IMG/VR virus record: IMGVR_UViG_3300020411_000222
Coordinates: 1-24,664 of that record
DNA: 24,664 nucleotides
Source of the DNA: a virus
Direction: 5' to 3' (one strand)
Positions 1,784 through 24,075 of this stretch are shown in pieces. The notes under the pieces are model-generated. The model ran no database searches, had not been told where the DNA came from, and was given only the letters and a program-made list of their open reading frames with translations. The first letter of the stretch is position 1, and each line of letters begins with the position of its first letter. A program made the translations under genes and the position numbers.

Positions 1784-1886
1784 AGAAAAAATTGAAACTA
1801 CAGAAGCAAGGATTAAAGAACTCCAGATGCTAATTGAGGCATGGAAAAAATTAATTGAGGAGAAAAAAAAGAATGAATCATCATGA
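1773..1886 (+). CDS. Coiled-coil micropeptide (37 aa)
   Basis: ATG at 1773, stop at 1884-1886. Nearly the whole product (MHLEEKIETTEARIKELQ onward) is a charged amphipathic helix with Ile/Leu heptads, so a dimeric coiled coil is plausible. It bridges two genes, overlapping the end of the glycine-rich membrane protein by 11 nt and the start of pcyA by 14 nt; these overlaps match the compact style of the window. The pcyA ribosome binding site lies inside it. No function can be assigned. Confidence 0.5.
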   Translation: MHLEEKIETTEARIKELQMLIEAWKKLIEEKKKNESS

Positions 1887-2565
1887 ATTGATTAATAAAT
1901 TATCTACTGTTATTCGTTGTTCTTATAGCTCATTACCAGGAATTAAACCTTTACACCTTAGTCCAGAGATGTCACAGATCTATGGAACTATGGATGATGA
2001 GAAGTTACAGATACATAATGAAGTATATAAGTGTCCAGGTCTTCGTAAGATTCATCTAGAAACTGCTAAGTTAGGATCTTTAGATGTCCTGCACTGTGTA
2101 TTTTTTCCAGATTCAAATTATGACTTACCAATCTTTGGTGCTGATGTTGTTGCTACTCCTAGAGGAGTTGGGGCTGCTATCGTTGATTTATCACCTGTTA
2201 GTGACTTTTCTCCCACCCTTACCGAGAAGTTAACACATATAAGCACATCCTTTAATTTTAAGGAAGAGAGAAAACTACCTGAATGGGGGAGTATATTCTC
2301 ATCCTATTGTAAATTTATTAGACCTACTAATAAGGCAGAAGAATCTAAATTTATTAATGCTGTAGAATCATATCTTACAATTTACACCTTAGCAGTTATG
2401 GAAGCAAAACCAACTGAAGGTCGAGAAGAAAGATTAAAAGCACAATTACATTATTGCAATCAGCAGAAGAAGAACGATAAGACTCGTGGCATCCTTGAGA
2501 GGTGCTTCAGTAAGGAATGGGCAGATAGATATATGGATGAAGTGTTGTTTGATGAACCTAAATAG
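1873..2565 (+). CDS. pcyA: Phycocyanobilin:ferredoxin oxidoreductase (PcyA)
   Basis: Ferredoxin-dependent bilin reductase that converts biliverdin IX-alpha to phycocyanobilin, the chromophore of phycobiliproteins. At 230 aa it is near the family length. It shows the PcyA-type core DVLHCVFFPD, LPIFGAD, AAIVDLSPVS, LPEWGSIFS and ADRYMDEVLFD. Glu63, His74 and Asp91 match the catalytic Glu/His/Asp triad of PcyA (His and Asp 17 apart, as in the cyanobacterial enzyme). The motifs fit PcyA rather than phage PebS. ATG at 1873 is chosen because AGGAG (1858-1862) precedes it; an upstream in-frame TTG at 1855 adds six Lys/Arg-rich residues. A phage version probably acts on host pigments during infection using host or phage ferredoxin. 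Confidence 0.93.
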   Translation: MNHHELINKLSTVIRCSYSSLPGIKPLHLSPEMSQIYGTMDDEKLQIHNEVYKCPGLRKIHLETAKLGSLDVLHCVFFPDSNYDLPIFGADVVATPRGVGAAIVDLSPVSDFSPTLTEKLTHISTSFNFKEERKLPEWGSIFSSYCKFIRPTNKAEESKFINAVESYLTIYTLAVMEAKPTEGREERLKAQLHYCNQQKKNDKTRGILERCFSKEWADRYMDEVLFDEPK

Positions 2566-8294: not shown

Positions 8295-9996
8295 AAAACT
8301 TCGATATAAAAATTTTCTGAGTACAGGCAATCAATTTACTGAGATTGTATTTGATAAAAACTCATTTAATACTTTAGTTGTTGGGAATAATGGTGCTGGT
8401 AAAAGTACTATTCTCGATGCTTTAACATTTTCATTATTTGGTAAATCTTATAGGGGTGTAAGTAAGAGTCAGTTAATTAATAGTGTTAATGAAAAAGGGA
8501 CAGAGGTTGAGATTGAGTTTGAGATTGGTACAGTTCAATGGAAGGTTGTAAGATGTATTAAACCAAATAAGTTTAATATTTTTAAGAATGATGAGATATT
8601 AAATCAAGATGCTCATGCAAATGCACAGCAGACTTGGTTAGAGAATGTAGTTCTTAAGATGAATTACAAATCATTTACACAGATTGTTATTCTTGGTAGT
8701 AGCAATTTTGTTCCTTTTATGCAACTGAGTGCTTCTAATAGAAGAGAGGTTATTGAGGATTTACTTGATATTAAAATATTCTCTCAGATGAACTCTGTTC
8801 TTAAGGATAAGACTAAAATAGTTAAGGATGAGATTAAACAGTTAGAATATAAATTGATGACTTTGGAGGAGAAGTATGAGATGCAGCAATCTTTTATGGA
8901 TGAGATTGAGGCATTAAGTAAGAAGGATATTAGTAATAAAAAGAAGTCTATTAAGCAACTTATTAAAGAACAGGAAAATCTACTAGAAGAAGAAAAGGAA
9001 CTTCAAAAGTCTTTAGAATCTAAGAATAATGAGTTAGAATCTTTTAGAGGATCAAGACAAAAACTTCGTAAGTTAGGAAACCTTAAAGGAAAAATTACTG
9101 AAAAAGTAACGACCATTACTAAAGAACATAAGTTCTTCACAGATAATGTAACATGCCCTACATGTACCCAATCCATTGAGGAGGAGTTCAGAATAAATAA
9201 AATCAAGGATTCCCAAAATAAGGCAAAAGAGTTGCAATCGGGTTATAAAGAACTCGAAGAGGCAATTAAAGAGGAAGAGTTGAGGGAGTCCTCTTTTATT
9301 AAGATATCCGACGAGGTAACTAATCTAACGCATGGCATTTCTCAAGTTAATACCAAAATCTCTGGATTCAAAAAACAAGTCAGAGATCTGGAACAAGAAA
9401 TTCAAACTCTTACCGATCAACTTGCAGACAGAAATACTGAAAATGAAAAGTTAGCAAACTTTAAAAATCAATTTGAGATTGCCACGGCAGATGCGGATTC
9501 TAGAAAAGATGATATAATAAGGTACAACTTTATATTTGATCTCCTAAAGGATGGTGGTGTCAAAACCAAAATCATTAGGAAGTATCTGCCTCTTATCAAT
9601 CAGCAGGTAAACCGTTATCTTCAGATGATGGACTTCTACATTAACTTCTCATTAGATGAGGAATTTAATGAGTCTATCAAATCTCCTATACATGAGGACT
9701 TCTCATATTCTTCTTTTAGTGAAGGTGAGAAGATGAGGATTGACTTGGCACTTTTGTTTACGTGGAGAGAAGTTGCTAAAATAAAGAACTCGTTGAATTG
9801 CAACCTCATCATTTTTGATGAGACATTTGATTCTTCTCTCGATGGATTCGGCACAGACGAATTCCTTCGGATCATTCGATTTGTGGTAGAGAAGGCAAAT
9901 ATTTTTGTAATCTCTCATAAGGAGGGTTTACAAGATAAATTCTCAAACGTTATTCGATTTGAAAAAATTAAAGGATTTAGTAGGATGAAATCATGA
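8281..9996 (+). CDS. 46: gp46 recombination nuclease subunit (Rad50-like)
   Basis: 571 aa SMC-like ATPase, partner of gp47. Walker A GNNGAGKS (35-42); long coiled coil from about 175 to 410 interrupted by a zinc hook CPTC (292-295); ABC signature FSEGEK (479-484); Walker B LIIFDE (509-514) followed by a D-loop (SSLD); switch His in VISHKE. Domain order and length match T4 gp46 (560 aa). Its end overlaps the epimerase gene by 4 nt. Confidence 0.96.
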   Translation: MITFKKLRYKNFLSTGNQFTEIVFDKNSFNTLVVGNNGAGKSTILDALTFSLFGKSYRGVSKSQLINSVNEKGTEVEIEFEIGTVQWKVVRCIKPNKFNIFKNDEILNQDAHANAQQTWLENVVLKMNYKSFTQIVILGSSNFVPFMQLSASNRREVIEDLLDIKIFSQMNSVLKDKTKIVKDEIKQLEYKLMTLEEKYEMQQSFMDEIEALSKKDISNKKKSIKQLIKEQENLLEEEKELQKSLESKNNELESFRGSRQKLRKLGNLKGKITEKVTTITKEHKFFTDNVTCPTCTQSIEEEFRINKIKDSQNKAKELQSGYKELEEAIKEEELRESSFIKISDEVTNLTHGISQVNTKISGFKKQVRDLEQEIQTLTDQLADRNTENEKLANFKNQFEIATADADSRKDDIIRYNFIFDLLKDGGVKTKIIRKYLPLINQQVNRYLQMMDFYINFSLDEEFNESIKSPIHEDFSYSSFSEGEKMRIDLALLFTWREVAKIKNSLNCNLIIFDETFDSSLDGFGTDEFLRIIRFVVEKANIFVISHKEGLQDKFSNVIRFEKIKGFSRMKS

Positions 9997-10904
9997 CAAG
10001 ATCATTAGTAACAGGAGGAGCAGGATTCATAGGATCAAACCTTGTAGATAAACTGCTTGCAGAAGGACATGAGGTAGTTGTAATTGACAATGAGTATTCT
10101 GATGCTCATGATCAGTTCTACTGGAATGATAAAGCAGAGAATCATAAGTTTGATATATGCGACTATGAGAATACACGACCATTATATGATGGTGTTGATT
10201 ACGTATTCCATATTGCAGCAGAAGCAAGAATTCAACCAGCAATTGAGAATCCTATAAGAGCAGTTCAGATTAACTGTGTAGGTACTACAACAGTATTACA
10301 ATGTTCTAGGGAAGCAGGTGTTAAGAAAGTGATGTATTCATCTACATCATCTGCTTATGGTATGGGTAAGATACCAAATGCTGAATGTCATCCAGAAGAT
10401 TGTTTAAATCCTTATTCAGTATCTAAGGTTGCTGGTGAGAAGTTGTGTAAGATGTATACAGATCTATTTGGTCTTAAGACAGTTATCTTTAGATACTTTA
10501 ATGTCTATGGTGAGCGTCAACCATTAAGAGGACAGTATGCTCCTGTTATTGGTATCTTCTTACGTCAAAGAGCAGCAGGTGAGAAATTAACTGTTGTTGG
10601 TGATGGTGAACAACGTAGAGATTTTACACATGTGTCTGATGTAGTTCATGCAAATTATCTTGCTGCTGTTACAGACATTAAAGATGAGGATTATGGTGAA
10701 GTTTATAATGTAGGTAATGGTACAAACTATTCTGTTAATCAAGTCGCAAGAATGGTTACATGCCTAGATAGTAGAATCACATATATTCCAGAGAGAATTG
10801 GTGAAGCAAGAGAAACACTTGCTCAGAATACTTTACTCAAGTTAATCTTTGGTTGGAGACCAACTGTAGATCTGGAGGATTGGATCAATGGACAAACCAA
10901 TTGA
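9993..10904 (+). CDS. NAD-dependent epimerase/dehydratase (extended SDR)
   Basis: 303 aa. The Rossmann motif TGGAGFIG (7-14) binds NAD(P). The catalytic YxxxK is Tyr141/Lys145 with SSTSS (116-120) supplying the Ser/Thr. RYFNVYGERQ and GDGEQRRDFTHVSDVV are typical of GalE/UDP-sugar epimerases and dTDP-glucose dehydratase relatives. It likely changes a nucleotide sugar, perhaps to alter host lipopolysaccharide or a phage glycan; exact substrate undetermined. The product is shorter at the C-terminus than classical GalE (about 340 aa). It lies directly after gp46 (ATGA overlap) and begins the cargo between gp46 and gp45. Confidence 0.88.
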   Translation: MTRSLVTGGAGFIGSNLVDKLLAEGHEVVVIDNEYSDAHDQFYWNDKAENHKFDICDYENTRPLYDGVDYVFHIAAEARIQPAIENPIRAVQINCVGTTTVLQCSREAGVKKVMYSSTSSAYGMGKIPNAECHPEDCLNPYSVSKVAGEKLCKMYTDLFGLKTVIFRYFNVYGERQPLRGQYAPVIGIFLRQRAAGEKLTVVGDGEQRRDFTHVSDVVHANYLAAVTDIKDEDYGEVYNVGNGTNYSVNQVARMVTCLDSRITYIPERIGEARETLAQNTLLKLIFGWRPTVDLEDWINGQTN

Positions 10905-11118: not shown

Positions 11119-11290
11119 CTGGCAGCACAATTCGGGCAAAGAACCGAAGCGAACGCTTAAACCTCAAGCGTTGCGTAGTGCAAGAGAAAGACGTAGACAA
11201 TTAAAAAAGCGTCTACTTATGACCTCTTCCCCACGGAAGGGGTTTTATAATGTGTATAACAAGTTAAAAAGTCTATGTCTGTCAATTTAG
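11105..11290 (+). CDS. Possible small basic protein (61 aa)
   Basis: Starts with ATG at 11105 (14-nt overlap with the preceding gene) and ends 16 nt inside the next gene, the usual overlap size here. The product begins MKLPNWQHNSGKEPKRTLKP and is very basic (ARERRRQLKKR), suggesting nucleic-acid binding. However, the same DNA holds several hairpins, a terminator-like hairpin (11223-11246) and a TATAAT box (11246-11251), so the stretch may instead be a non-coding regulatory region. The two readings are not exclusive, but only moderate support can be given. Confidence 0.4.
   Translation: MKLPNWQHNSGKEPKRTLKPQALRSARERRRQLKKRLLMTSSPRKGFYNVYNKLKSLCLSI
11223..11246 (+). terminator. Terminator-like hairpin before the CobT-like gene
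   Basis: An 8-bp stem CCTCTTCC/GGAAGGGG (11223-11230 with 11235-11242, one G-U pair) with a 4-nt loop CCAC is followed by TTTT (11243-11246). The T-tract is short and merges with a TATAAT box. It could end transcripts from the gp46/epimerase operon before a new start. Two other potential stems lie upstream at 11152-11172 and 11193-11216. Confidence 0.45.
11246..11251 (+). promoter_or_regulatory. -10 box upstream of the CobT-like gene
   Basis: Perfect TATAAT ending 23 nt before ATG 11275, the same distance as seen for gp55. No acceptable -35 is visible at 16-18 nt, where the terminator hairpin sits. A phage activator or an extended element would be needed, or the match is chance. Confidence 0.35.
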
Positions 11291-13569
11291 AAATCAAAGG
11301 AACTCTAGCAAAATTACTTGCTACAGAAGATCTAATCATCGAGAATAAACAAGTAGAGACAGCATGCTTTAATGTACAGACTCGTGTACTAACACTTCCT
11401 ATGTGGGAAAGAGCAGATGAGATTGTTTATGATATGTTGGTTGGTCATGAAGTAGGACATGCACTATTCACACCTAATAGAGATCCAAAAAAAGGTATTC
11501 CTCAGTCATTTATTAATGTTACAGAAGATGCTCGTATTGAGAAGTTAATGAAGCGTAAGTATCTTGGACTTGGAAGGACTTTTTATAATGCATATCAAAC
11601 AATGTTCCAAGATGATTTCTTTGAATTGGATGGTGAAGATATTGATGCACTTAGTCTTGCTGATAAAATAAATCTACACTATAAAGTTGGTGCATTTTTG
11701 GCAATAACATTTAACGAAGAAGAGCAAAAGATTGTTGAACTTGTTGGTGATGCTGAGACTTTTGAAGATGCAGAAAATGCAGCAGAGGTTCTATACAAGT
11801 ATTGTAAAGATCATCAGGAAGATACTGAAGATGAAGGTGAGAAAATAAGTATAGAATCAATGTCTCTTGAAGCAGATATTGAAAAGTTTGAAAAGGAGAA
11901 GGAAGAAAAGACAGGTGATTCTGGAGAAGATAATGCTGAGAATAAGCAAGAGGAAGGAGATGCAAAAGAAGGTCGTCCTGACCTAGGTACAGATGATACA
12001 GAGTATCCTTTAGAAGATCTTAGTGAAGGTAGAGGAAAGGAATCAGATCAAAAAACAGAAGAAAAAGAAGAGCTTATACTGGAACAAAAAAGTAGTGGTG
12101 CTTCTTTACAAAATACTGAAGGGGAACCACGAGTTCAAACTGATGATATGCTAAAGCAAAAGATTAGAGATCTTATATCAAATGATGCAATGCCTAATGA
12201 GTATCTTGAAATACCTGATGTAAATCTTGATACTATTATTAATTCTAACGAAGAAGTTCATTCTTATATTAAAAAGGAATGGGCAGTTTGGGAAGAAGCA
12301 GTAAAAAAAGAAAATGAAGATTTGGGTATAAGTTCAAGAGATAGTTATTTTAGAAATCCACAGATAACTTTTGAATCTGTAGATAAGGAATTTGCAAAAT
12401 TAAAGAATGATTCTAAAAAAGCAGTTAACTATCTTGTTAAAGAATTTGAGATGAAGAAAGCAGCATCTGCATATGCTCGTGCTGCTACCTCTAAGACTGG
12501 TGTATTAGATACAGGTAAACTTCACACATATAAGTTTAATGATGACCTATTCAAAAAGGTTACAACATTCCAAGAAGGTCAAAGTCATGGACTAATATTC
12601 GTACTTGATTGGTCTGGATCTATGAATAATGTTTTGAGAGATACTTTAAAACAACTATACAATCTAATTTGGTTTTGTAAAAAGGTTAATATTCCATTCA
12701 AGGTATATGCTTTTACATATGAGTACAATCGTCTTGAGTATGATCCTATTACTCATAGACCAATAGAGGTTCAATCTCATTACACTCCAGAAGATGGGCA
12801 ACTTGTAGTTGAAGATAGATTTAGTTTGATGGAGTTCTTTACTAGCAATAGTCGTCCTAAGGATTTAGAAGAACAGATGAAAAATATTTGGAGAATTGCT
12901 TGTGCCTTTAGAGAATATGGAACATACCCAATTCCACCTAGGATGAATCTATCTGGAACACCATTGAATGAGACTGTAATTGCTCTCAATAAAATTATTC
13001 CACTATTCCAAAAAGAGTGTGGAATGGAGAAGGTACAATGTGTGATTTTGACTGATGGTGAGACACATCATTTGCCACGTCATAAGTTAGTTCAAAGACA
13101 TTGGGAACCAGAACCATTCATGGGGCAAAATAATCTTAATGCCCATAGAGATTATCTTCGCAATCGTAAGACTGGTAGAACTTATAAGGTTCCACCTCGT
13201 TATCATGAGTTTACTCAACTCTTACTTAAGTATGTTAATGACATTCATCCTAATGTTAATTTTATTGGTATTAGAGTTATGCCTAGTAGGGATGCTAATT
13301 ACTTCATTAATCGTTATTGTGGTTATGATGGTGCAGACTATGATAAAGCAAAAAAACAATGGAAGAAGTTTAAGAGTTGTTCTCTTCCAGTAGATGGATA
13401 TAAAAAATATATTGGAATGTCAAGTGGTGCTATGGCATCAGATGATATGGAATATGTTGTTCCAGAACAAGCAACAAAGTCTCAATTAAAGAGTTATTTC
13501 AACCGTTCTCTTAAGGATAAGCAACTAAATAAGAAGGTACTTAGTGAGTTTGTAGAACTCATAGCATAA
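11275..13569 (+). CDS. CobT-like protein: HEXXH metallopeptidase-like N-terminus plus VWA domain
   Basis: 764 aa. N-terminal HEVGH (58-62) followed by TEDARIE (83-89), which could supply a further metal ligand as in zinc peptidases. A long acidic low-complexity linker spans about 176-285. The C-terminal von Willebrand A domain has MIDAS motif DWSGSM (445-450), then SGTPLNE and LTDGETHH for the remaining MIDAS positions. This architecture matches cyanophage proteins annotated as 'peptidase' or CobT-like. CobT is the VWA subunit that pairs with the CobS AAA+ ring in aerobic cobaltochelatase; the CobS-like gene follows 183 nt downstream. Whether it acts in cobalamin synthesis or as another AAA+/VWA machine is open. 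No ribosome site is visible. Confidence 0.85.
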   Translation: MSVNLEIKGTLAKLLATEDLIIENKQVETACFNVQTRVLTLPMWERADEIVYDMLVGHEVGHALFTPNRDPKKGIPQSFINVTEDARIEKLMKRKYLGLGRTFYNAYQTMFQDDFFELDGEDIDALSLADKINLHYKVGAFLAITFNEEEQKIVELVGDAETFEDAENAAEVLYKYCKDHQEDTEDEGEKISIESMSLEADIEKFEKEKEEKTGDSGEDNAENKQEEGDAKEGRPDLGTDDTEYPLEDLSEGRGKESDQKTEEKEELILEQKSSGASLQNTEGEPRVQTDDMLKQKIRDLISNDAMPNEYLEIPDVNLDTIINSNEEVHSYIKKEWAVWEEAVKKENEDLGISSRDSYFRNPQITFESVDKEFAKLKNDSKKAVNYLVKEFEMKKAASAYARAATSKTGVLDTGKLHTYKFNDDLFKKVTTFQEGQSHGLIFVLDWSGSMNNVLRDTLKQLYNLIWFCKKVNIPFKVYAFTYEYNRLEYDPITHRPIEVQSHYTPEDGQLVVEDRFSLMEFFTSNSRPKDLEEQMKNIWRIACAFREYGTYPIPPRMNLSGTPLNETVIALNKIIPLFQKECGMEKVQCVILTDGETHHLPRHKLVQRHWEPEPFMGQNNLNAHRDYLRNRKTGRTYKVPPRYHEFTQLLLKYVNDIHPNVNFIGIRVMPSRDANYFINRYCGYDGADYDKAKKQWKKFKSCSLPVDGYKKYIGMSSGAMASDDMEYVVPEQATKSQLKSYFNRSLKDKQLNKKVLSEFVELIA

Positions 13570-13718
13570 TGCTTACTCGAAAGGAATGGGATATGATTGC
13601 TAGGTGTGTGCATTGTCATCCACCTAGCATTACTACTGAAGAGGCAAACGACCTTATAAAAAAACTATCTGAGACAGTTGAAAAACTGGAACATTTAAAA
13701 GGGTTAAGTATTAAATAG
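13569..13718 (+). CDS. Micropeptide (49 aa) between the CobT-like gene and cobS
   Basis: ATG at 13569 shares one base with the preceding stop (TAATG), the commonest coupling mode in this window. The product begins MLTRKEWDMIARCVHCHPPS, with Cys13, His15, Cys16 and His17 that could bind a metal, followed by a helix (ITTEEANDLIKKLSETVEKL). No family recognised. It could be an accessory to the CobT/CobS-like pair by position only. Confidence 0.6.
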   Translation: MLTRKEWDMIARCVHCHPPSITTEEANDLIKKLSETVEKLEHLKGLSIK

Positions 13719-13722
13719 CGTA

Positions 13723-13733
13723 TATAATATAAT
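13723..13733 (+). promoter_or_regulatory. Tandem overlapping -10 boxes upstream of cobS
   Basis: Two overlapping perfect TATAAT hexamers (13723-13728 and 13728-13733) in the 34-nt gap before cobS. The second reads TATAATTACT, the same 10-mer found at the gp55 promoter (6471-6480). The -35 side is weak (best TTAAGT at 13704-13709, 18-nt spacer). The shared 10-mer suggests a phage-specific early/middle promoter signature. Confidence 0.45.
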
Positions 13734-13752
13734 TACTGAACAACATTACATT

Positions 13753-14892
13753 ATGGCCTTTGAAATTAAAATGACTAAAGAACAAGTCATTGATGGTTTA
13801 AAAACCGATTATGGTACAGAGATTACCACTAACGACATTAAAGTATTTTGCGTTAAGAATGATATTGGTTATCAAACTGTCACCAAAAAAATTCAAGAAT
13901 TTAAAGTTACCAAAGGCAAATGGAATTTGGAAGTAACTACTCAAGTTGTTGAAGATCTAAATCAATCTTATCAAGCACCAGCAGCAATGCCAGCAGTCGA
14001 ACAAAATTTAATCCCTGATAAGGATGCTACATTTGTTAAATTTGGACCTTTTGCAGATGTTAAGAAAATCATTGGTTCTAAATTATTCTACCCATCTTTT
14101 ATTACTGGACTATCTGGTAATGGTAAGACCTTTAGTGTAGAACAAGCATGTGCTCAATTAAATAGGGAGTTAATTCGTGTCAACATCACAATCGAAACGG
14201 ACGAAGATGATCTCATTGGTGGTTTCCGTCTTATTAATGGCAGTACTGTTTGGCACAACGGTCCTGTTATCGAAGCACTACAAAGAGGGGCAGTCCTGCT
14301 TTTGGACGAAGTTGATCTTGCCTCTAACAAGATCTTGTGCCTCCAGTCAATCCTAGAAGGTAAGGGAGTATTCGTTAAAAAGATTGGTAAGTTTATCAAA
14401 CCTGCTCATGGATTTAACGTAATCGCTACTGCTAATACCAAAGGTAAGGGATCTGAGGATGGAAGATTTATTGGAACTAATGTTCTTAATGAAGCATTCT
14501 TGGAGAGATTCTGTGTAACCTTTGAGCAACAGTATCCTAATCCTGTTACTGAGCATAAGATCCTTACTGCAAAGGCAGTAGAAGTTGGTATCCAACTATT
14601 AGATAATAGAGAACCATGTGAGAATACTGTGTTCTGTAAGCGTCTTGTAGACTGGGCAGACATCATTCGTAAGACATTCTTTGATGGTGGTATAGATGAA
14701 GTTATATCAACTCGTCGTTTGACACACATCATTAGAGCGTATAGTATCTTTAATAACAAAGAGAAAGCAATTAAGATGTGTCTTAATAGGTTTGATGATG
14801 AGACCAAGCAGTCCTTCATGGAACTCTATGACAAAGTTGATCCTGATTTTGTACCAGCAGAAAATGGACAAGAAGAGGAATCCTTGGTATAA
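13753..14892 (+). CDS. cobS: CobS-like AAA+ ATPase (cobaltochelatase subunit homologue)
   Basis: 379 aa MoxR/CobS-type AAA+ ATPase: Walker A GLSGNGKT (119-126), Walker B VLLLDEVD (181-188), sensor 1 region FNVIATANTKGKG, and the arginine-containing NEAFLERF. The first 75 residues look like a separate N-terminal domain with a Pro/Ala linker (QAPAAMPAVEQ). CobS genes are among the most common cyanophage auxiliary genes; in bacteria CobS with CobT and CobN inserts cobalt into hydrogenobyrinic acid diamide during B12 synthesis. No CobN is seen here. The phage pair may boost host cobalamin synthesis or form a different remodelling complex. Confidence 0.92.
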   Translation: MAFEIKMTKEQVIDGLKTDYGTEITTNDIKVFCVKNDIGYQTVTKKIQEFKVTKGKWNLEVTTQVVEDLNQSYQAPAAMPAVEQNLIPDKDATFVKFGPFADVKKIIGSKLFYPSFITGLSGNGKTFSVEQACAQLNRELIRVNITIETDEDDLIGGFRLINGSTVWHNGPVIEALQRGAVLLLDEVDLASNKILCLQSILEGKGVFVKKIGKFIKPAHGFNVIATANTKGKGSEDGRFIGTNVLNEAFLERFCVTFEQQYPNPVTEHKILTAKAVEVGIQLLDNREPCENTVFCKRLVDWADIIRKTFFDGGIDEVISTRRLTHIIRAYSIFNNKEKAIKMCLNRFDDETKQSFMELYDKVDPDFVPAENGQEEESLV

Positions 14893-15669: not shown

Positions 15670-16321
15670 TAAAACTGTTAATTTACTGAAGAATTTTAGC
15701 AACATCAATCAATCTATTCTTTTTAAAGAGGGTAGTAAACTTCGCACTATTTCTGTAATGAAGAATATTCTTGCAGAAGCAGAAGTCAATGAATCATTTC
15801 CAAAAGATTTTGGAATTTATGATTTGAATCAATTCCTTAATGGTATGGGATTACATCAGAATCCAGATTTGGATTTTGAGAATGAAGGTCATGTTGTTAT
15901 CAAAGAAGGTAGGATGAGATCCAAATACTTCTTTGCCGATCCTAGTGTAATAGTTACACCTCCAGATAAGAATTTAGATCTTCCTAGTGAGGATGTATCT
16001 TTTGAATTAAATACACAACAGTTAGATCGTTTGCTTAAAGCAGCAGGGATTTATCAGTTACCTGATTTATCTGTTATTGGTAAAGCAGGTGTGGTTAAGA
16101 TTCTTGTACGAGATAAGAAGAATGATACTTCTAATGACTTTGCTATCACAGTTGGTGAGACAGATAAAGAGTTTGTATTTAACTTTAAAGTAGAGAATAT
16201 TAAGATTATACCTGGTACATATGATGTTGTTGTATCTCAAAAACTATTGTCTAGATTTAAGTGTAAGGATTATGAACTTACATACTTTATTGCACTAGAA
16301 CCTGATTCATCCTTCCAGTAA
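15656..16321 (+). CDS. 45: gp45 sliding clamp
   Basis: 221 aa, near T4 gp45 (228 aa). Trimeric DNA polymerase processivity clamp, also the mobile enhancer of late transcription with gp55. The N-terminus MKLSDKTVNLLKNFSNINQS aligns with T4 (MKLSKDTTALLKNFATINSG), which decides the ATG at 15656 over an in-frame ATG at 15617. Further matches: YDLNQFLNGM, FADPSVIVTPPDKNL, FELNTQQLDRLLKAA, and the end YFIALEPDSSFQ. Its stop shares a base with the next start. Confidence 0.94.
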   Translation: MKLSDKTVNLLKNFSNINQSILFKEGSKLRTISVMKNILAEAEVNESFPKDFGIYDLNQFLNGMGLHQNPDLDFENEGHVVIKEGRMRSKYFFADPSVIVTPPDKNLDLPSEDVSFELNTQQLDRLLKAAGIYQLPDLSVIGKAGVVKILVRDKKNDTSNDFAITVGETDKEFVFNFKVENIKIIPGTYDVVVSQKLLSRFKCKDYELTYFIALEPDSSFQ

Positions 16322-17250
16322 TGAGAAATACTATCCTCTATGGGGATTGTAGGGAGACCTTAAAACAATTTGCGTCTCACACCGATAAGGCGAGGATGTG
16401 TGTAACATCACCGCCTTATTATGGTCTTAGGGATTATGGTGGAGAAGAGAATCAAATAGGTCAAGAACAATCACCTGAAGAATTTATACAAAACTTAGTT
16501 GAAGTTTTTAGTTTGGTAAGAGATTGCCTAACTGATGATGGTACACTATGGGTTAATATAGGTGATAGTTATTACAACTATAGACCTGGTAAAGGACAAT
16601 CATATCCTAAGCAGTCGGTAAGTAAAACTAAACAAGATTTACCAGATAAGTGTAATAAACGTGGTAATAAATTAGAAGGATTAAAGGAGAAGGATTTAAT
16701 TGGTATTCCTTGGATGCTTGCCTTTGCTCTTAGAGCAGATGGTTGGTATCTACGTCAGGATATTATATGGCACAAACCTAATCCTATGCCTGAGTCAGTA
16801 CGAGATAGATGTACTAAGTCACATGAATATATTTTTTTATTGAGTAAAAATAAAAAGTATTATTATGACAATGAAGCGATTAAAGAACCTGCTAAAGACT
16901 GGGGTACTAGAGATCGTAGTAAAGGTAAGTATCACAATGCTGGCACTGGTTTATCCCCTCACACAGGGTTAAGTAAGAGTTACCCAACAAAGAATAAACG
17001 TTCTGTTTGGAGAGTAACTAATAAACCATATAAGGGAGCACACTTTGCAGTTTATCCACCTGATCTTATTGAACCATGTATAAAGGCAGGTAGTAAGTCT
17101 GGTGATATTATATTAGATCCATTTATGGGATCTGGTACAACTGCTAGGGTTGCAAGGTCTCTAAATAGGGATTATGTTGGGTGCGAACTACATGAAGAGT
17201 ACCGCAACTTAATTGAAATACCATCATTAGATGGACTAATAGAAAAATGA
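16321..17250 (+). CDS. DNA methyltransferase, SPPY (probably cytosine-N4) type
   Basis: 309 aa beta-class methyltransferase: the catalytic motif IV TSPPY (29-33) lies N-terminal and the S-adenosylmethionine motif I DPFMGSGTT (266-274) C-terminal, with WVNIGDSY and IIWHKPNPMPES between. SPPY is typical of N4-cytosine enzymes, although some adenine enzymes also carry it. The target cannot be read from sequence. It sits between sliding clamp and clamp-loader genes with 1-nt and 4-nt overlaps, so it is part of the replication operon. Likely role: marking phage DNA against host restriction or regulating transcription. No adjacent cognate nuclease. Confidence 0.9.
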   Translation: MRNTILYGDCRETLKQFASHTDKARMCVTSPPYYGLRDYGGEENQIGQEQSPEEFIQNLVEVFSLVRDCLTDDGTLWVNIGDSYYNYRPGKGQSYPKQSVSKTKQDLPDKCNKRGNKLEGLKEKDLIGIPWMLAFALRADGWYLRQDIIWHKPNPMPESVRDRCTKSHEYIFLLSKNKKYYYDNEAIKEPAKDWGTRDRSKGKYHNAGTGLSPHTGLSKSYPTKNKRSVWRVTNKPYKGAHFAVYPPDLIEPCIKAGSKSGDIILDPFMGSGTTARVARSLNRDYVGCELHEEYRNLIEIPSLDGLIEK

Positions 17251-19498: not shown

Positions 19499-20527
19499 AT
19501 GCCATTACACCAACACAAAAAAGATCAGGTGTTTAATCTTAAAGGATCTGATAAATTATTAAAAACACCCTTAAGATATCCTGGTGGCAAGTCTCGTGCT
19601 TGTGCTAAGATGGATAATTTTTTACCTAACTTGGATCAGGGTAGTAGGTATAAACAGTATCGTGAACCATTTCTTGGTGGAGGATCTTTTGCTCTTCATA
19701 TTACAAAGAAGTATCCACATCTAGAGATTTGGGTTAATGATGCATATGAACCTCTTGCTAACTTCTGGCAACAGTTGAAAGCAGATGGTGCAGAAATGAA
19801 AAAGAGATTAGTTAAACTTAAAAATGCTAATAAGACTGAGGAAAAGGCAAAGGAATTATTTTTAAAAGCAAAGGAGGATTTGTATGACAAAGAAGCTACC
19901 GCCTTGGACAGGGCAATTAATTTTTATATTATCAATAAGTGCTCTTTTAGTGGTTTGTCTGAGTCCTCGTCCTTCAGTGCTCAGGCAAGCAAATCCAACT
20001 TTACCCTTGCTGGAATTAAAAGATTAGATGATTATCAAGAACTAATTAAGTTTTGGAGAATAACTAATAAGGATTATAAAGAGTTAATGTTTGAAGGTGG
20101 TGATTGTTTTATGTACTTAGATCCTCCTTATGATATTAAGGATAACTTATATGGTAAGAAGGGTGGAATGCATAAGAATTTTGATCATGACGAGTTTGCT
20201 GATGCATGTTGTAGAACTACTGCTCATCAATTAATATCTTACAATAGTAGTGAGTTGGTTAAGAGTCGGTTTGATAATGAATGGCAAGCACAAGAGTATG
20301 ATCTAACATATACTATGAGATCTACTAATGATTATAAAGAAGATCAGAAGAAAAGAAAAGAACTTCTTTTATTCAATTATGAACGTGGATTGATATCTAT
20401 TCTACAGGAACAAAAGGGACAAGAAGAGATACTGTGGAAGAAAGAAGCAGAGTCAAAATCTGCAATTCCAATTTCTCCTAAAACTTTTGCTGAAGCAGAA
20501 ACACTTATTAAATCGGATATTGAGTAA
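19499..20527 (+). CDS. dam: Dam-type DNA adenine-N6 methyltransferase
   Basis: 342 aa, class D12 (alpha) enzyme. Motif I region TPLRYPGGKS (23-32), EPFLGGGSF (56-64) for cofactor binding and the catalytic DPPY (208-211) are present, along with NKCSFSGLSESSSFS (146-160) typical of the family. It transfers methyl to N6 of adenine; Dam relatives usually act on GATC, but specificity is not proven here. The C-terminus (about 285-342, charged, Glu/Lys-rich) extends beyond the usual 270-280 aa. No clear ribosome site in the 23-nt gap. Stop shares one base with the next ORF. Confidence 0.92.
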   Translation: MPLHQHKKDQVFNLKGSDKLLKTPLRYPGGKSRACAKMDNFLPNLDQGSRYKQYREPFLGGGSFALHITKKYPHLEIWVNDAYEPLANFWQQLKADGAEMKKRLVKLKNANKTEEKAKELFLKAKEDLYDKEATALDRAINFYIINKCSFSGLSESSSFSAQASKSNFTLAGIKRLDDYQELIKFWRITNKDYKELMFEGGDCFMYLDPPYDIKDNLYGKKGGMHKNFDHDEFADACCRTTAHQLISYNSSELVKSRFDNEWQAQEYDLTYTMRSTNDYKEDQKKRKELLLFNYERGLISILQEQKGQEEILWKKEAESKSAIPISPKTFAEAETLIKSDIE

Positions 20528-21693: not shown

Positions 21694-24075
21694 ATGTCTC
21701 TACTTAATAATGGTATCAATGATCGTCTATACTACACTCTAGGTAAACGACCCGACAATGCTAGTAAGCATGATTTCTATATGGCACTTTGTTATGCTGT
21801 AAGAGATCAGATGATGTCATACTGGTTAAATAACCAACAGTCTAACGAAAAGGAAGTTGCTTATTTATCCGCAGAGTTTTTAATTGGACCACAACTTAAT
21901 AACAATCTTTTAAACCTAGGTCTTAAAAAGGATGCAGAAGAAGCACTAGCAGAGTATGATCAGTGCTTGGATAAGATCCTTGATTGTGCAGAGGAACCTG
22001 GACTAGGTAATGGTGGTTTAGGTCGTCTTGCAGCGTGTTATATGGAGTCCTTAGCGACTTTAAAGATACCTTCCACTGGATATGGTATTAGATATAAGTA
22101 TGGTATTTTTAAACAGGTAGTTAGAGATAATCAACAAATAGAGATTACAGATAATTGGTTGCATGGAGATTGGCCTTGGGAATTATCTTATCCAGATGAA
22201 TCTGTTCATGTTGGGTTTGGTGGTAGAGTAGAGAATTATGTATCAGATCATAATAACTATAGATGTCGTTGGGTTCCTGAAGAGCAGGTAGTTGCTGTAC
22301 CCTATGATGTATTGCAGTTAGGATATAGAGTTAACAGTTGTAATAGGATTAGACTTTGGAGAGCAGATGCTACAGATGTATTTGACTTCTATGCATTTAA
22401 TATTGGAGACTATCTTGGTTCAGTAGAACAGAGTGTGTCTTCTGAAACTATCTCCAAGGTATTGTATCCTAATGATGGTACAGATCAAGGTAAGAAACTT
22501 AGATTAAAACAACAATACTTCTTTGTAAGTGCTTCTCTTCAAGATATGTTTAATAGTCTTGATAGGAGAGGTATTCCTATTGAGAATTTTGCAGAGCATT
22601 ATCAAGTACAATTAAATGATACTCATCCATCTGTTGCTGTTGCAGAGTTGATGAGACTTCTTGTAGATGTTAGACATTTAGAGTGGGAAGATGCATGGGA
22701 GATAACCCATGCTGCTATAGCATATACAAACCATACTCTTCTTCCAGAGGCATTAGAGAAGTGGGATCTTAGACTCTTTAAGTCTCTACTGCCACGTCAT
22801 ATGGAGATCATCTATGAGATTAATCGTAGGTTCCTTAATGCTGTTCGTATAAAGTATCCTGCTGATGAATCAATGTTAGCAAAGATGTCTATTATTGATG
22901 AGCATGGTAATAAGTCAGTTCGTATGGCACATCTTGCTACTGTTGGTTCTCATCATGTTAATGGTGTTGCAGCGTTACATTCTGATCTTATTAAGAAACA
23001 ATTGATGCCAGAGTTTTATGATATGTGGCCCCATAAGTTTACTAATGTAACTAATGGTGTTACTCCACGTAGATGGTTGGCATCATGTAATCCAAATCTT
23101 GCAACTGTTCTAACTGAAGCAGTTGGTTCAGATTGGGTTACTAATATGGATTTACTAAACCAACTAGATGTTGATGATAAGAATCTTTTAGATAAGTTTG
23201 CAGAGACCAAGATAATTGGTAAACATCATCTTGCAACTTATATCTTTAACAATCTTGGAATCTGTGTAGATCCTAGTAGTATGTTTGATGTACACGTTAA
23301 ACGTATACATGAATATAAGAGACAACATTTACTTGCATTGCAAGTAGTTGCTCAGTATCTTAGAATCAAAAACGGAAAGGACTTCGTTCCTCGCACAGTA
23401 ATATTTGGGGGTAAAGCAGCACCTGGATATTATATGGCAAAATTAATCATTCAATTTATTAATCGCATTGCAGAAACAATCAATGCAGATCCAGATATGG
23501 ATGGTAAGTTACGTGTAGTATTCTTACCAAACTATAGTGTTAAATTGGGTGAGAAGGTATATCCTGCTGCTGACTTATCAGAACAAATCTCTACTGCTGG
23601 TAAGGAAGCATCAGGTACAGGTAATATGAAGTTCCAAATGAATGGTGCTTTAACCATCGGTACTCTTGATGGTGCAAATGTAGAGATACTTGATCTTGTA
23701 GGCAAAGAGAACTTCTTCTTGTTTGGTAAAAATGAAGAAGAGATTAGTGATCTTTGGAGACATGGTTATAACCCACAAGATCACATGTGTCCAGAGTTAT
23801 GGGAAGCAGTTAATCTCATACAAGGTGGACACTTTACTCATGGTGATAAAGACGTATTCAAACCATTAATGGATAATCTTTTAAATCATGATCCCTTCTG
23901 CGTCATGGCAGATTTTAATGATTACATTGCTGCTCAAGATCGTGTAAGTGATGCATGGAGGGACAAGGATAATTGGAATCGTATGGCGGTTATCAACACC
24001 GCAAGGTCTGGTTTCTTCTCTTCTGATAGATCTATTACGGATTACTGTACTAAAATTTGGGGTATTCCGAACTAG
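21694..24075 (+). CDS. glgP: Glycogen phosphorylase
   Basis: 793 aa, full length for the bacterial GlgP/MalP family (about 790-840). PLP-dependent; releases glucose-1-phosphate from glycogen. Intact motifs: EPGLGNGGLGRLAACYMES (101-119), WLHGDWPWEL (155-164), YQVQLNDTHPSVAVAEL (303-319), VKRIHEYKRQ (535-544), FGGKAAPGYYMAK (571-583) and KEASGTGNMKF (637-647), in which Lys646 is the predicted PLP lysine, then LTIGTLDGANVEI. No allosteric phosphorylation segment as in animals. Codon use is AT-rich, like the phage neighbours, so it is not a recent host fragment. It would mobilise host glycogen, the main night-time carbon store of cyanobacteria. Confidence 0.97.
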   Translation: MSLLNNGINDRLYYTLGKRPDNASKHDFYMALCYAVRDQMMSYWLNNQQSNEKEVAYLSAEFLIGPQLNNNLLNLGLKKDAEEALAEYDQCLDKILDCAEEPGLGNGGLGRLAACYMESLATLKIPSTGYGIRYKYGIFKQVVRDNQQIEITDNWLHGDWPWELSYPDESVHVGFGGRVENYVSDHNNYRCRWVPEEQVVAVPYDVLQLGYRVNSCNRIRLWRADATDVFDFYAFNIGDYLGSVEQSVSSETISKVLYPNDGTDQGKKLRLKQQYFFVSASLQDMFNSLDRRGIPIENFAEHYQVQLNDTHPSVAVAELMRLLVDVRHLEWEDAWEITHAAIAYTNHTLLPEALEKWDLRLFKSLLPRHMEIIYEINRRFLNAVRIKYPADESMLAKMSIIDEHGNKSVRMAHLATVGSHHVNGVAALHSDLIKKQLMPEFYDMWPHKFTNVTNGVTPRRWLASCNPNLATVLTEAVGSDWVTNMDLLNQLDVDDKNLLDKFAETKIIGKHHLATYIFNNLGICVDPSSMFDVHVKRIHEYKRQHLLALQVVAQYLRIKNGKDFVPRTVIFGGKAAPGYYMAKLIIQFINRIAETINADPDMDGKLRVVFLPNYSVKLGEKVYPAADLSEQISTAGKEASGTGNMKFQMNGALTIGTLDGANVEILDLVGKENFFLFGKNEEEISDLWRHGYNPQDHMCPELWEAVNLIQGGHFTHGDKDVFKPLMDNLLNHDPFCVMADFNDYIAAQDRVSDAWRDKDNWNRMAVINTARSGFFSSDRSITDYCTKIWGIPN

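Follow-up and report, generated by a model that had tools for sequence, protein, structure and literature searches.

Introduction

What does a paired AAA+ ATPase and VWA-domain protein, named after cobalt chelation, do in a marine phage? The pair in question lies in IMG/VR virus record IMGVR_UViG_3300020411_000222, whose 24,664 bases were analysed whole (the window) and belong to a T4-like marine phage. Open reading frame (ORF) A (11275–13569, plus strand, ATG start, 764 residues) joins a zincin-like head, an acidic linker, a helical middle and a VWA domain, and ORF B (13753–14892, plus strand, ATG start, 379 residues) encodes a MoxR-type AAA+ ATPase. Proteins of the ORF A kind are named CobT in some papers. 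Both ORFs match phage protein families over their full length: ORF A matches phrog_459, labelled "peptidase" (828 bits), and ORF B matches phrog_249, labelled "cobS" and "porphyrin biosynthesis" (445 bits). An initial annotation had placed an HEVGH motif at residues 58–62, an acidic linker and a VWA metal ion-dependent adhesion site (MIDAS) in one protein followed by cobS; this architecture and the coordinates of both genes proved exact, with a 49-codon ORF lying between them.

We put at roughly 55% the probability that the two proteins work together as a motor like NorQD, equipped with a zinc-protease head and directed at a protein of DNA replication, recombination or repair, and that they are not a cobaltochelatase. 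ORF B would be the ATPase ring of a MoxR-type AAA+/VWA protein-remodelling machine, on which the VWA domain of ORF A would dock as NorD does on NorQ. At its N-terminus, on a long acidic tether, ORF A would carry a zinc metallopeptidase domain of the gluzincin type (HEXXH … E). Powered by ATP, the VWA domain would move and thereby tug at a bound target or open it up, for cleavage by the tethered head; that target is most likely a DNA replication, recombination or repair protein of phage or host. We infer zinc binding, proteolysis, NorQD-like docking and the kind of target from what was observed here, namely architecture, site conservation, predicted fold, relatives and gene neighbourhoods.

Conservation of the HEXXH site

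Could the HEXXH motif of ORF A have arisen by chance? HEVGH (residues 58–62; 11446–11460, plus strand), a putative zinc-binding and catalytic motif, is the sole HEXXH of the protein, with 0.035 expected from composition per protein. Given this low expectation and its invariance among relatives, chance occurrence was rejected. With the window itself counted, 86 relatives were read, and 84 have HEXXH (79 HEVGH, 4 HEVSH and 1 HESAH); the matches of the remaining two (L003 and L076) start downstream of the motif. Conservation of HEVGH in homologues was one of two points on which the initial annotation had staked its idea, and that conservation is what we found.

In an alignment of the window with 60 of 80 viral loci (61 rows), H58, E59, V60 and H62 are invariant, and so are N81, E84, D85, R87 and E89, which spell N-x-x-E-D-x-R-x-E (11515–11541, plus strand). 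Only 3 of the 16 histidines of ORF A are invariant, two of them inside the HEXXH. The gluzincin-type signature, HEXXH with a downstream Glu, is conserved in 61/61 rows, and its spacing and predicted topology make E84 the putative third zinc ligand. HEXXH is also kept in all 16 relatives from bacterial or archaeal assemblies, which are probably phage contigs, and in 8/9 distant or outlying phage VWA partners, a count that leaves out an Acinetobacter neighbour gene without a VWA motif; the ninth partner, from Pseudomonas phage phiK7B1, has lost it.

Predicted fold and the NorQD analogy

What fold carries this site? Searched by sequence, ORF A matched no Pfam or NCBIfam family at E ≤ 1 and had no convincing solved relative (best E 0.24). 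AlphaFold2, given the 61-row alignment, returned a full model with a mean predicted local distance difference test score (pLDDT) of 74.8, in which residues 186–282 fall below 50 and are predicted to be disordered. They belong to the acidic linker (residues 185–290; 11827–12144, plus strand), which has 37 D/E against 14 K/R in 106 residues. The N-terminal head (residues 1–186; 11275–11832, plus strand) was modelled with a pLDDT of 87 and a predicted template modelling score of 0.83. It consists of three short β-strands followed by helix 49–65, which bears HEVGH, and helix 77–95, which bears E84, the two helices lying beside the sheet.

When the head alone was searched with Foldseek, the first nine rows were all zincins, comprising ArdC, the minigluzincins abylysin, jannalysin and selecase, and PprI. 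VIA-align likewise ranked ArdC (Z 7.2), selecase (6.9), jannalysin (6.8) and abylysin (6.7) ahead of BlaR1, Wss1 and PprI/IrrE, the Z-scores of the top rows ranging from 7.2 to 5.4. Two further rows, 6cyj and 6cz6, are named only "transcriptional regulator" and presumably contain a zincin-like domain. The minigluzincins, ArdC, Wss1 and PprI/IrrE have a zincin core such as is predicted for the head, at 8–22% identity in the VIA rows; to our knowledge, none of them is linked to an AAA+/VWA pair. These scores are modest, and it is fold, motif and conservation jointly that suggest a minimal zincin.

The rest of ORF A points to a motor. The VWA domain and C-terminal tail (residues 438–764; 12586–13569, plus strand) have NorD of NorQD as their best solved match, and in the Foldseek search with the full model NorD chains 9qhe and 9qh6 ranked first and second and were the sole matches at E ≤ 0.001. 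The MIDAS begins with DWSGS (residues 445–449; 12607–12621, plus strand), that is D445-x-S447-x-S449, and is completed by T562 and D594; by alignment, D445, S447, S449 and D594 are present in 61/61 relatives and T562 in 60/61. ORF B matches AAA_5 (67 bits) and lies beside the VWA gene; its Walker A (119) and Walker B (181) motifs are followed by ATANT (225), which resembles sensor 1. The AAA_5 match and the complete MIDAS bear out the earlier assignment of the pair to the MoxR kind. NorQ/NorD (PDB 9QH6, 9QHE) and CbbQ/CbbO have the same plan, a MoxR ring with a VWA partner that carries an N-terminal domain and a linker. According to PMC13036017, NorQD inserts iron into cNOR and is proposed to remodel its client by an ATP-driven rotation of the VWA part. 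Our suggestion that the motor opens a client which the head then cuts stems from this analogy; unlike the phage head, the NorD-type heads examined lack HEXXH.

Does the head handle metal rather than cut protein? Like NorQD or CbbQO, the pair could serve as a chaperone that activates an enzyme or inserts a metal into it, and the metal site of the head would then be structural or one for metal delivery. NorD is after all the best structural match, the NorD-type plasmid relatives of Roseibium and Shinella keep HxxxH without the Glu together with the E-D-x-R-x-E helix, and HEXXH is missing from the pair of Pseudomonas phage phiK7B1. However, all 61 rows have E59, a Glu of the catalytic type whose invariance would not be required by metal binding alone, and the genes around the phage pair include no obvious metalloenzyme partner. 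We therefore consider such a chaperone improbable and retain the protease-headed motor.

Relation to cobaltochelatase

Is the pair a cobaltochelatase, as its usual name implies? CobS and CobT are, like the phage proteins, an AAA+ ATPase and a VWA protein, and the E-x-A-R-x-E helix of CobT resembles the phage E-D-x-R-x-E. On the strength of this architecture, the pair could join host CobN (or ChlH) and raise cobalamin (or Mg-porphyrin) for a host B12-dependent ribonucleotide reductase, and passages of PMC8651126 and PMC5083919 propose a phage CobST. Yet ORF B scores 74 bits against the CobS equivalog TIGR01650, far below its cut-off of 558.55, and the CobT models do not claim the VWA subunit; among the relatives, 7/61 touch PF06213, with a best E of 0.02. 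A passage of the review PMC5083919 itself holds that cyanophage cobS is not truly homologous to bacterial cobS.

The heads differ as well. Pfam CobT occurs in 41/58 alphaproteobacterial genomes, and HEXXH was found in 0/21 genuine CobT ORFs read, a count that includes one (L133) probably read in the wrong frame. Where HEXXH would stand (placed by eye), CobT heads read RGxADAxAL, after which a helix of the VEQARVEA type is retained. With CobT heads represented by an alignment of 14 of the 21 ORFs, profile comparison with the phage heads was not significant (4.7%). A moderate link joined CobT heads to those of plasmid HEXXH-VWA proteins (81.3%), which in turn matched the phage head at 98.9%; the phage head is thus nearer the plasmid kind than the cobaltochelatase. 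A direct homology between phage head and CobT therefore lacks significance, and only the route through the plasmid proteins works. In favour of a phage CobST, one plasmid cousin, from Methylobacter, exceeds the Pfam CobT cut-off (40.7 versus 26.1 bits, 2.7e-10).

Would a partner chelatase subunit be at hand? No CobN-family protein (PF02514) was found in 13/13 longer phage records with the pair or its distant form (nine and ten records in two scans, six shared; three are virus contigs, possibly fragments). The 24.7-kb window is itself a fragment, so the absence of CobN from it is uninformative. The Synechococcus elongatus control has a PF02514 (CobN/ChlH-family) protein, and a ferredoxin-dependent bilin reductase gene in the window (1855–2565, PF05996) makes a cyanobacterial host probable, which speaks for a phage CobST. 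Against it, Pelagibacter phage HTVC008M has the pair, and its host clade, SAR11, is termed B12 auxotrophic in a passage of PMC9296465. The E. coli genome among the 14 controls has no PF02514, yet E. coli harbours a plasmid cousin of the pair. The phages also bring their own class I-type ribonucleotide reductase small subunit (9/9 phage records), so that their own reductase gives no reason for extra B12.

Taken together, a phage CobST acting through host CobN or ChlH appears very doubtful, and cobalt chelation is unlikely as a general function of the pair. We propose that A and B are a cousin of cobaltochelatase CobS/CobT and not a cobaltochelatase; the "peptidase" label may be closer to the mark than the porphyrin/cobS naming. 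The initial annotation had allowed the pair a second role besides chelation. A role other than chelation is indeed the better reading, and its place as second does not stand, little pointing to a chelatase. As that annotation had suggested, the pair may process a host or phage protein. As a separate observation on cells, 20 of the 41 alphaproteobacterial genomes with Pfam CobT, genomes of unstated completeness, lack a PF02514 match, and the control Caulobacter vibrioides likewise has CobT and lacks PF02514; in cells, CobT may have a role that does not involve CobN.

Relatives on plasmids

Where else is this head found? A tblastn search of plasmids gave 18 records, all aligned inside residues 10–135, that is within the head, and 12/18 rows are annotated VWA. 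All 18 matches have E ≥ 0.7 and prove nothing alone; the weight is carried by the profile comparison of phage and plasmid HEXXH-VWA heads (hhalign 98.9%, E 2.7e-17). Judged by sequence, the nearest non-phage relatives of ORF A are plasmid HEXXH-VWA proteins encoded beside an AAA+ gene.

The plasmid relatives as a whole are of two kinds. The first, HEXXH-VWA with AAA+ and DUF3150, was found in Vibrio pNDM-116-14, Methylobacter, Thiomicrorhabdus, IncA pRA1, IncHI2A pLWY24 and Azospirillum; pDK1 also belongs here, although neither an AAA+ gene nor DUF3150 is annotated in the stretch examined. HEXXH is present in 6/7 of these lineages (the exception being Azospirillum), an AAA+ gene lies nearby in 6/7, and bet, exo, ssb, exonuclease or toprim genes occur in the examined stretch of 5/7. 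Among 72,556 plasmid records, 2359 match a single query of this kind and 1932 of these are classed as conjugative, VWA-only matches included. The AAA+ – DUF3150 – HEXXH-VWA genes of IncA, IncHI2 and MOBH plasmids have a head related to that of the phage, and differ in their DUF3150 gene, none of which was seen beside the phage pair. A full-text literature search for DUF3150 found no paper. The second kind is the NorD-like one of Shinella and Roseibium described above, in which HxxxH lacks the Glu and the E-D-x-R-x-E helix is kept. On those plasmids (L098 and L101) the NorQ/NorD-like pair stands beside urea-transport and aliphatic amidase genes and is possibly an amidase activase.

Genomic context and the choice of target

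What might the machine act on? One strand of the window carries a UvsW-like helicase, gp47/gp46-like genes, a sliding clamp and a clamp loader, the names UvsW, gp46, gp47 and gp44 having been read from translations and the P-SSM2 gene order. ORFs A and B sit between the gp46-like gene and the clamp, with gp47/gp46-like genes upstream and gp45/gp44-like genes downstream, and the same flanks are found in P-SSM2, S-PM2 and HTVC008M. Beyond this neighbourhood, DNA polymerase III alpha lies near the pair in Klebsiella, Rhizobium and Pseudomonas phages, and primase and helicase lie near that of a Gordonia phage. There are exceptions: in S-CREM2 the pair stands amid small unknown genes, in Saratov-15 the neighbours are unnamed, and in GodonK a dUTPase and a methyltransferase are near. 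Phage neighbours and plasmid contexts together favour a replication or recombination target over virion assembly.

Virion assembly has been proposed for a similar pair. A chaperone combining motor and metallopeptidase might, late in infection, assist the folding and processing of structural proteins, and PMC7824862 suggests a role in virion assembly for the MoxR/metallopeptidase-vWA pairs of group 2.2 jumbo phages, citing an archaeal virus whose tail assembly needs a MoxR-vWA system. Likened by description, the jumbo phage pair has the same domain plan as ours. However, the neighbours found here and in relatives are chiefly replication and recombination genes, not virion genes, and the plasmid cousins have no virion. 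ATAAATA, which we take to be a late-promoter-like motif, was seen 5 times in the window against 12.8 expected, with none near the pair and none between 9200 and 21861; with fewer matches than chance, its absence from the pair says little. Sigma-70-like sites were also fewer than in shuffles (18 versus 27.1), and neither count is informative on promoters. A literature search on the expression timing of the gene returned no usable passage. A part in virion assembly is, in our judgement, an unlikely one, and we continue to prefer a target among the proteins that replicate, recombine or repair DNA.

Distribution and other features of the window

Relatives of ORF A were found in 463 phage records and of ORF B in 505, chiefly Synechococcus and Prochlorococcus phages; the contig closest to ORF A (L001) is 99% identical. 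B lies downstream of A on the same strand in 70/70 loci having both. One further locus (L046) shows no B within its 2432 nt downstream and was not counted as a loss; in the similar locus L043, B starts 2579 nt downstream. The small ORF between the genes (13569–13718, plus strand, 49 residues) begins in the stop codon of A (TAATG), is of uncertain membership in the system and occurs only in the three closest relatives (L001, L002 and L003). In order, strand and gp46–gp45 position the window pair equals phrog_459 and phrog_249 (T4-GC 146 and 150); it is an ordinary cyanophage member with no difference of substance. A PADLOC search gave no match for ORF A or B at E ≤ 0.1, and an anti-phage defence system was rejected.

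Elsewhere, the window encodes a nucleotide-sugar epimerase between the gp46-like gene and ORF A (9993–10904), two DNA methyltransferases of differing type (16321–17250 and 19499–20527; N6_N4_Mtase and D12 class) and a glycogen phosphorylase (21694–24075; PF00343, 1029 bits) that adjoins an Hsp20 gene and has 71.8% identity to a Synechococcus phage S-SCSM2R protein.

Discussion

How firmly does a protease-headed motor stand? Several observations count against it: (i) the Foldseek E-values of the head are weak, the best being 0.095, and all VIA-align Z-scores are below 8, a range in which a common arrangement can score; (ii) phiK7B1 retains the pair with the motif lost (SEISK), and the Azospirillum plasmid protein (L142, 6001–8145) reads HEAGGH, its head being similar apart from the one inserted residue, so that catalysis is not needed everywhere; (iii) replication genes are clustered in T4-like phages anyway, which makes the inference from neighbours modest; and (iv) in cyanobacterial hosts of the window kind, A and B may act on host CobN or ChlH.

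What could unite the phage and plasmid genes? Tentatively, and with considerable doubt, we suggest that an AAA+/VWA motor is common to tailed phages and conjugative plasmids and that its working zincin head acts on DNA-bound replication or recombination proteins, perhaps clearing DNA–protein blocks as Wss1/SPRTN do in eukaryotes. Cellular CobT and NorD would then be descendants that lost the protease site and kept the linkage to the motor.

The pair and its domain plan are already in print, jumbo phages included; in open-access papers we did not find it reported that the zincin site is invariant among the cyanophage relatives, that it has kin in the plasmid genes or that CobT lacks it, and a passage search of PMC9976466 likewise yielded nothing relevant. 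The gene pair is ordinary and its name probably wrong. Because the head is conserved, was lost naturally in phiK7B1 and can be compared with CobT and NorD, the question is open to test with point mutants. If the protease-headed motor is real, a machine widespread in phages and plasmids would have been left unstudied.

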